From Gloeomargarita sp. SRBZ-1_bins_9 (GTDB taxonomy: Bacteria; Cyanobacteriota; Cyanobacteriia; Gloeomargaritales; Gloeomargaritaceae), in contig JAUQVX010000004.1 in assembly GCA_039794565.1 (NCBI GenBank), positions 62,001 through 126,000 of the forward strand: a DNA stretch of 64,000 bases, written 5' to 3'. Position numbers and translations under genes: made by a program. Position 1 is the stretch's first letter. Each line of letters starts with the position of its first letter. Shown one piece after another: positions 19,016-42,974 of the stretch. Below the pieces are notes generated by a model, which made no database searches, was not told the DNA's origin, and saw only the letters and a program-made list of their open reading frames with translations.

Positions 19016-20194
19016 CTAGCCGGTAGCCGGCGGTGAACTGGGAGTTGCACAGGTCATCCCTTCACAGGCTGCCACCTCCGGCGCCAGGGGCATTTGGGGC
19101 TGGTCGTACTGCCGCAACAGCGCTCCAAAATCATCGGATTTCCGCCGGCGCAACACCGCCTGCATCAATTCCTCGTAACGGTCCTTGCTGATGGGTTCAA
19201 AGGGCAGTCGCGGAAAGGTTTGCAGGGCGTCGAAGCGGGCCAGGAGCGCTGCGCTGATATAGCCTTCATCCTGGTGAATGGCCCGGTAAATCCGCTCGGC
19301 CAGCGGCTCAATCTCCTGCTCGCGAAACTCAATCGTGGCCGAGGTGTTGTGGGTGGTGTAGTGACGCTGCACGTTCATGTAGAAATCAAATTGGGCCAGG
19401 GCGCTGAACCGGCTGATGTCCACCCCCGCCTCGTCGGCAATATCCGCCCAGGAGACCGCCACCGGAATTTCCACCAGCCATTCCCTGCAGCGGGGGTCAA
19501 AGGGGTCATTGAGCAATTGCCCCTGATCATCCTTATCCGCCTGTCCCGGCACCACGCTGTAGCCGTAGTCCATGCAGGCCAAGGCCACCGGGTCATTTTT
19601 GGCAAAGGTAATGCGGCGGATATAACGCTGGGCCTTGGGGGGATGCCAACCCGGGGAGGCATTGGTTAGCAAGCTTTTGGTTCCTGCCGGTTGCACCGTT
19701 GTACAGCGATTGGGCCGCCGCAGGCCATGCCGGTCGCAGTAATCCCACACCACCCGGTGGACCACCCCTTGCCAAAAGGTCAAGTAGTCCGCTTCTTTCT
19801 GGCGAAACCTCACCCCCAAATCGTCATCCGGTCGGCCGGCAGCCCACCACTGCAGCCACACTTTGCCAAAGGCATGCACAAAGAAATCAAACAGCCCCGT
19901 AAACGACACGCCGACGATGGGGTCAATTGCCCTAGAGTACTGAAATCGGGGTTCCACAAACCGGTGATGCAACAAGGCGGCCACCGTCAATGCCCCCGCC
20001 GTAAAGGCCTTTTCCTGCTCCTCCAAGTTGTGGGGATCAATTTGGTTCAGGTGAATTTCCGCCAGGTTACAGTGAAAGTCGGCGCCGATGATTTCCCCGC
20101 AGGGATTTAGCCCATAACGACTCATGCGGTGGTCTAGTTCCGCCTCTAGGGTCCTGTCTGTCAGGTTCAGGAAACGTTCCGGGGCTTGGGTCAT
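19016..20194 (-). CDS. nrdJ: C-terminal half of B12-dependent (class II) ribonucleotide reductase
   Basis: About 392 residues matching only the second half of monomeric NrdJ (normally 740 or more). It begins just before the radical site RYGLNPCGEIIG (Cys32, Glu34) and keeps the disulfide Cys42 (DFHCNLAE), TVQPAGTKSLLTNASPGWHP, and a C-terminal CEGMTC pair with the CX4C spacing of the shuttle cysteines of the Lactobacillus enzyme. The N-terminal half with the other active-site Cys and the allosteric region is missing; upstream DNA encodes other genes on the other strand. No intein residues are seen at the NPCGE site. Either the protein is split, with the other half elsewhere, or this is a remnant. 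The intact open frame favours a functional split. Start uncertain; the frame extends to 20362. Confidence 0.8.
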   Translation of the reverse strand: MTQAPERFLNLTDRTLEAELDHRMSRYGLNPCGEIIGADFHCNLAEIHLNQIDPHNLEEQEKAFTAGALTVAALLHHRFVEPRFQYSRAIDPIVGVSFTGLFDFFVHAFGKVWLQWWAAGRPDDDLGVRFRQKEADYLTFWQGVVHRVVWDYCDRHGLRRPNRCTTVQPAGTKSLLTNASPGWHPPKAQRYIRRITFAKNDPVALACMDYGYSVVPGQADKDDQGQLLNDPFDPRCREWLVEIPVAVSWADIADEAGVDISRFSALAQFDFYMNVQRHYTTHNTSATIEFREQEIEPLAERIYRAIHQDEGYISAALLARFDALQTFPRLPFEPISKDRYEELMQAVLRRRKSDDFGALLRQYDQPQMPLAPEVAACEGMTCATPSSPPATG

Positions 20195-20278: not shown

Positions 20279-20509
20279 GTGAACGAAGGCCGGGTAACCA
20301 GGATGACAACCCTGAGGATTGTACTCAGCGACCAGGTACTGGAACCGGAGGTGATTTGTCAAAGTTGTCCCCTGGCGAGTCAGATGGGAACGCCGCGCTG
20401 GTCGGGAGGACGCCTAGGCTGTGGTCATCCAGCACAACGCACCGAAGCGCAAGAGCCGCTGGCCTTTGAATGTGTCATGGGATTTCGTGTTGTTGCCCTC
20501 CGCTCCTGA
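20279..20509 (+). CDS. Small cysteine-containing protein of unknown function
   Basis: A 76-residue (or 68 from ATG 20303) protein. Four cysteines occur as CQSCPLAS, then LGCGHP and FECVMGF, which could bind a metal. The sequence starts TTLRIVLSDQVLEP. I do not assign a function; the look is that of a conserved short cyanobacterial protein. A TATGAT box about 25 bases upstream may be its -10. It is divergent from the reductase-fragment gene. Confidence 0.55.
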   Translation: MNEGRVTRMTTLRIVLSDQVLEPEVICQSCPLASQMGTPRWSGGRLGCGHPAQRTEAQEPLAFECVMGFRVVALRS

Positions 20510-42385: not shown

Positions 42386-42592
42386 AGCCCCAATTTTAAC
42401 CCAGGGACGCCACCTGCAAACCCAGAACTAACCGATCAACCGGTAACGGGCCTGTACCCTGGGGCCTGATCAACAAATTAAAGAAAAAACATCAATAACA
42501 CCCGTTTCAGGTTACGGACCAGCAACTGAGCGAATAAGCATCGCTGGCCAAGGACAACTGGATACTGCAATCAGCCTTGGGGTGGGTGTTCA

Positions 42593-42974
42593 TGGAGCCG
42601 AGCGGAATCGAACCGCTGTCCGCATCGGGTAGTAGCGTCCGAATCGTTCACAGGCTTAGGTGTCTTCACCCAGACACCAGGGGCCGATTTTGTCCCAAAC
42701 CGACCAGGGGTTCACGGTTAACCCTTGGCTAACAGGCAACCGTGCAAATCCTGTTAGCGCAACCGTTGGGGATCACTCATGGCTTAACGGTGTCACCATG
42801 AGCGGCTCGAGGTCGTCCTACTGACCCTTAGGCAGCCACAACGGCCGCTTTACGAGCAAAAGGAACGATGTTGTTCGCACTTACGCGCTTGAGCCTGGAT
42901 TTACGAGCAGTGCTCATGCTCGGCCTGCATCATCGGAGGCGCGTTCGCCGACACGTCGAAGCCATTACGGCCCC
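42593..42974 (-). ncRNA. ssrA: tmRNA (one-piece)
   Basis: On the minus strand the RNA starts GGGGCCGTAATGGCTTCGAC at 42974 and ends with TTCGATTCCGCTCGGCTCCA at 42593; the two ends pair as a 7-base acceptor stem with one G-U, and CCA is encoded. The resume frame (42878 to 42828) reads ANNIVPFARKAAVVAA and stops at TAA, close to other cyanobacterial tags. Length about 382 bases. Together with SmpB it rescues stalled ribosomes. No permutation is present. Confidence 0.96.

Follow-up and report, generated by a model that had tools for sequence, protein, structure and literature searches.

In the 64,000-nucleotide stretch of the Gloeomargarita sp. SRBZ-1_bins_9 genome analysed here (contig JAUQVX010000004.1, positions 62,001 to 126,000; hereafter the window), a minus-strand open reading frame (ORF) very probably encodes one chain of a B12-dependent class II ribonucleotide reductase (RNR) that can work only as two chains, an NrdJ of the RTPR type whose two polypeptides would assemble non-covalently. 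The ORF encodes the C-terminal half of the enzyme (C-half), and the N-terminal half (N-half) is encoded by a separate, unlinked gene. We also consider it likely that this is the first cellular RNR with a catalytic alpha/beta barrel made from two separately encoded, unlinked half-barrels, fixed genus-deep and serving as the only RNR of its hosts.

The C-terminal half of NrdJ is a separate gene

The window ORF has a clean frame of 392 amino acids (aa), with an ATG at 20194 and a stop at 19016. It matches the RTPR family profile TIGR02505 over positions 363-721 of 724 (E=2.3e-115) and is by itself above the curated cut-off. A 448-aa reading, extended to an upstream TTG, is a mechanical artefact; the sequence MTQAPER, at the ATG, begins the C-half in 7/7 Gloeomargarita species. 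A first-pass annotation, made from the letters of the window, had described the ORF as half of a class II RNR in a separate gene that retains the radical Cys and Glu, one Cys of the disulfide and the CX4C pair, but not the N-terminal half with the other disulfide Cys and the allosteric site. This description holds, the retained residues being C32, E34, C42 and C377/C382, and the window locus lacking the N-terminal half along with its partner Cys and specificity region. The ORF had, however, been described as beginning just before NPCGEI, and it starts ~28 residues before NPCGE. When aligned to the Lactobacillus leichmannii RTPR (1l1l), the catalytic residues of the C-half are identical across the 24 intact homologues aligned.

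An AlphaFold2 (AF2) model of the C-half alone (pTM 0.77), which predicts the fold of an RTPR half, has 1l1l_A as its best PDB match (E=4.1e-14, TMq 0.61). The model of an intact homologue also matches 1l1l_A (TM 0.71-0.74). In the C-half model, the predicted local distance difference test score (pLDDT) is low at residues 1-14, a helix is present at 13-27, and poor definition is mainly seen at the two termini and in the finger loop (26-36), as would fit a loop that depends on the other half.

The N-terminal half and the RNR content of the genome

Family models were run against the window genome, which is 2.22 Mb in 21 contigs and 99.98% complete. The RTPR profile identifies exactly two pieces, the window C-half and a match at C2:41198-42301 on another contig, in an ORF of 394 aa that covers TIGR02505 positions 22-351. 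The two ORFs jointly span positions 22-351 and 363-721 of the 724, and the second is the N-half that the first-pass annotation had proposed to look for in the rest of the genome; it fills in the remainder of the profile and stops at the point where the C-half starts. The RTPR search identified no complete nrdJ in the window genome, and profile searches for the NrdA/NrdJ_Z barrel, NrdB and NrdD returned nothing above cut-off, so that neither the full NrdJ nor the class I RNR whose presence that annotation had left to be checked is detected there, nor is a class III enzyme. The NrdA/NrdJ_Z and NrdB profiles also have no match above cut-off in the other Gloeomargarita genomes or in the genome of the sister genus (G007). 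With no other RNR above cut-off, the split NrdJ should be the only source of deoxyribonucleoside triphosphates (dNTPs) in the host. A CobA/CobO-type adenosyltransferase is encoded in 8/8 genomes (seven Gloeomargarita plus G007). No convincing NrdR box is present upstream of either half, and NrdR itself was not found. Sigma-70 and terminator scans gave no matches.

The separation is conserved throughout Gloeomargarita

The C-half is located apart from any N-half in 7/7 Gloeomargarita species examined, and an N-half is detected, at a second conserved site, in six of the seven. In every species where it is found, the C-half has pth and a DUF3318 gene as neighbours, and the N-half is flanked by a holin-like gene/uvrA on one side and by pipX-pipY-sepF-proC on the other. 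The distance between the two sites can be read directly from two complete, single-contig genomes, with the halves at 580 kb and 3002 kb in G002 (3.16 Mb) and at 1110 kb and 1831 kb in G004 (3.05 Mb). The sister genus has one intact 778-aa nrdJ, adjoining dxs, and no nrdJ half at either its pipX or its DUF3318 locus. Among 80 named nrdJ loci, that of Gloeomargarita is the one without a C-half nearby; in 79/79 cyanobacterial loci outside Gloeomargarita, the C-half sequence is present in the same locus, either in the same frame or past an interruption. What is said here of other cyanobacteria comes from these 79 loci, together with the search in which the N-halves of the relatives were located. 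In one draft genome (G006), the N-half (L046:3899-5103) has its start in a different frame from the remainder, which reflects either a frameshift or a draft error.

Trees constructed for the N part and for the C part (the latter a quick tree) each contain one split clade, sister to G007, and this agreement of the two half-trees points to a single fission event. Ratios of nonsynonymous to synonymous substitution (dN/dS), calculated by simple Nei-Gojobori and with dS near saturation in the deeper pairs, are 0.08-0.12 for the N-half and 0.035-0.06 for the C-half within the genus, and 0.07-0.16 in comparisons with G007, values that indicate strong purifying selection on the two halves. They also retain 296 of the 303 near-invariant columns of intact homologues (139/143 in the N-half and 157/160 in the C-half).

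The break probably lies between the two half-barrels

In the model of the intact Thermosynechococcus homologue, the break falls in the loop between helices 370-377 and 383-390, ~25 residues ahead of the finger loop, with the first helix staying on the N-half and the second on the C-half; NPCGE is at 396-400. Alignment with intact homologues reveals no homologous segment missing at the break. As the RNR barrel has been described as a pair of five-stranded halves linked through the finger loop (PMC9669993), a cut at this position would part the two half-barrels, with the C-chain retaining the finger loop. The DNA at the 3′ end of the N-half has nothing in common, above chance, with that of the C-half 5′ region. 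An apparent second split at the same point, in the nrdJ of G014 (L048:4273-6581), is probably a frameshift error and not a fission; it comes down to a single base of difference in a poly-G run, within continuous homology, and there is no new start codon.

Inteins, introns and other explanations for the separation

A trans-splicing element, either a split intein or a split intron, could in principle join the halves into a full-length NrdJ. NrdJ is an intein hot spot, with inteins at four sites in the relatives of the window genome, and split NrdJ inteins are known, as cited in PMC3653736. We nevertheless regard trans-splicing as very unlikely. Intein motifs are absent from both sides of the break, where the N-half ends in a short, variable and non-homologous tail past the last homologous helix and the C-half starts with MTQAPER. 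Neither locus has an Rfam intron match, and the stop codon of the N-half overlaps the start of the next gene, which leaves no room for an intron. As no homologous residue is missing, any joined product would include a non-homologous linker. The inteins of the relatives are continuous LAGLIDADG cis-inteins, at NP^CGE, FH^CNL, QPAG^T and NIRR^S, all inside the halves, and nrdJ inteins are absent from the window genome. The first-pass annotation was therefore correct that no intein sequence is visible at the break, and also that an RNR intein site is close by, NP^CGE being ~30 residues downstream, but this proximity does not provide the mechanism, as the intein of the relatives at this site is a cis-intein within the C-half. 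With no intein fragment in either half, the arrangement is best read as plain gene fission and not as a split-intein arrangement.

In three relatives (G002, G003 and G004; loci L038, L040, L041 and L042), up to four cis-intein sites are distributed over both nrdJ halves. The exteins of G002 and G003 are near-identical and their filled intein sites differ, which suggests that inteins were gained or lost recently. An interruption of ~0.2-1.2 kb at NPCG^E is present in many nrdJ genes of cyanobacteria (L055, L058, L062, L066, L072, L074, L075 and others), with an N-terminal ORF of ~420 aa, a gap, and then a C-terminal ORF that begins at GEII or just after. We label these interruptions only tentatively as probable introns, since Rfam returned no match at the gathering threshold (eight loci) and none in one permissive test. 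That they represent the same thing as the Gloeomargarita split was considered and rejected; they are a different phenomenon at another position.

The C-half gene is half-length and class I and III RNRs are common among bacteria, and it might be argued that this gene is a decaying remnant in a cell that obtains its dNTPs from another enzyme. This is highly improbable, given a dN/dS of 0.035-0.10 for the C-half, its intact catalytic residues, its presence at the same locus in seven species, the existence of an N-half and the absence of any other RNR from the search results. The first-pass annotation had also argued against decay, and had looked to a complete nrdJ elsewhere together with relaxed selection as the signs that would overturn the split-gene idea; neither is seen. 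Almost no weight can be given to the possibility that errors of assembly or sequencing produced the separation. The window genome is a 21-contig draft, but the same layout, with the same flanking genes, is present in independent assemblies that include the two single-contig genomes. It is also unlikely, if less remote than these, that the enzyme has two chains of which either or both have a further activity, alone or with another partner, such as a regulated subunit ratio that controls dNTP supply. In its favour, the loci are separate and have different upstream regions, and NrdR was not detected. There is, however, no positive evidence for an additional role, and the near-invariant RTPR residues are almost all kept in both halves, as they would be for the ancestral function only.

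Proposed organization of the two-chain enzyme

The naturally split NrdJ of two chains that the first-pass annotation had envisaged is thus supported by the N-half, by the genus-wide separation and by selection on both genes; the two chains presumably assemble into an active enzyme. The N-chain (394 aa) would include the N-terminal domain and the specificity/insertion region, carry one disulfide Cys, and form the first half of the alpha/beta barrel. The C-chain (392 aa) would contribute the finger loop with the thiyl-radical Cys, the second barrel half, the other disulfide Cys and the shuttle cysteines. Translated separately, the two chains would dock non-covalently, with the finger loop of the C-half inserted into a barrel whose other wall is the N-half. 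Catalysis would then proceed as in a monomeric RTPR, with adenosylcobalamin generating the thiyl radical, a Cys/Cys disulfide forming across the two chains, and the C-terminal pair re-reducing this disulfide. From its position and from what is known of the family, we take the other disulfide partner, Cys119, to be Cys93 of the N-half, on the other chain, a residue that is likewise invariant in the 24 intact homologues. Profile coverage, the radical Cys and Glu of NXCXE, the Cys pairs and the 1l1l fold (from the models of the C-half and of an intact homologue) are all as in the RTPR family, the departure being that the single polypeptide of the family is here encoded by two unlinked genes.

Several points weigh against this interpretation. 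The N-half of G005 was not found, G005 being the most incomplete of the relatives (83% complete); the absence of other RNRs comes from profile searches of assemblies; and the case for a two-chain enzyme is built on genes, sequence comparison and structural models of the C-half and of an intact homologue.

The features of the C-half gene are listed in Table 1. Its leader stands in place of the linker that joins the halves of an intact NrdJ.

Table 1. Features of the nrdJ C-half gene, in window coordinates
Feature	Position	Strand	Evidence
Gene for the C-terminal half of NrdJ (392 aa), with the radical-Cys finger loop, second catalytic-barrel half and C-terminal shuttle cysteines	19016..20194	-	TIGR02505, conserved start, dN/dS, AF2 model
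N-terminal leader: MTQAPER (7/7 species), variable stretch, helix AELDHRM	20120..20194	-	Alignment of split and intact homologues
Radical Cys32 (= Cys408 of L. leichmannii RTPR), NPCGE motif	20099..20101	-	Alignment
Catalytic Glu34 (= Glu410)	20093..20095	-	Alignment
Cys42 (= Cys419), one active-site disulfide partner	20069..20071	-	Alignment
C-terminal shuttle pair Cys377/Cys382 (CX4C; = Cys731/Cys736)	19049..19066	-	Alignment

Divergent from the C-half gene there is a 68-aa ORF (window 20303-20509, plus strand) with several cysteines and no Pfam match, which is conserved at the equivalent position in six further Gloeomargarita species (79-93% identity) and is absent from the DUF3318 locus of the sister genus. 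Elsewhere, the window contains a tmRNA gene (42590-42974, minus strand; Rfam RF00023, 110 bits).

Comparison with known split RNRs

In Pseudomonas aeruginosa and other Proteobacteria, a class II RNR is formed by two polypeptides, NrdJa and NrdJb, that are unspliced and both required in vivo (Crona et al. 2015, PMC4520616). NrdJa (734 aa) provides catalysis and the binding of cofactor, substrate and effector, NrdJb (229 aa) is a C-terminal disulfide-exchange domain, and their genes form one operon in an organism with additional RNRs of classes I and III; a 2015 study described this proteobacterial case as the only split RNR from a non-viral organism (PMC4520616). The Gloeomargarita enzyme is likewise a class II RNR encoded by two genes, but whereas NrdJa holds the whole barrel, here the barrel is halved, the genes are unlinked, the protein is a member of the RTPR subgroup, and the searches detected no further RNR. 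In Aeromonas phage Aeh1, NrdA is cut in a functionally critical region into NrdA-a and NrdA-b, which are active as two chains without splicing, and the split is due to a mobE homing endonuclease located between the adjacent halves (PMC2988022, PMC3653736). The Gloeomargarita catalytic chain is also cut in a critical region and would likewise be active as two unspliced chains. In contrast to this class I phage system with mobE, the Gloeomargarita halves are unlinked on a cellular chromosome, with no endonuclease gene seen beside either. The nrdJ-a and nrdJ-b of Thermus phage phiYS40 are consecutive ORFs, 12 nt apart, reported to group with the P. aeruginosa NrdJ (PMC3653736); they too are a class II nrdJ in two ORFs, but the Gloeomargarita halves are neither adjacent nor of phage.

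Intact NrdJ proteins of the RTPR type, from other cyanobacteria and from L. leichmannii (1l1l), belong to the same family, with the same residues and fold, but as a single chain. Some intein-bearing metagenomic nrdJ arrangements lie in two genes. Split-intein NrdJ arrangements from metagenomes (Dassa et al. 2009, as cited in PMC3653736) differ in that intein fragments rejoin the protein, whereas the Gloeomargarita halves are without intein fragments. No description of a split NrdJ in Gloeomargarita was found in open-licence PubMed Central text, and this case, with the barrel of a cellular enzyme cut between unlinked genes, differs from every case that we found.

RNR is an essential enzyme, normally with one chain per barrel, and Gloeomargarita is the closest known relative of plastids. 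Here, a cut between the half-barrels has been kept through a whole genus, apparently with no other RNR. The split enzyme offers a system for asking whether half-barrels fold and dock alone, how the radical loop sits at a subunit interface, and whether subunit assembly can control dNTP supply. If the interpretation is correct, Gloeomargarita would provide a natural experiment on how the RNR fold is built from two halves.
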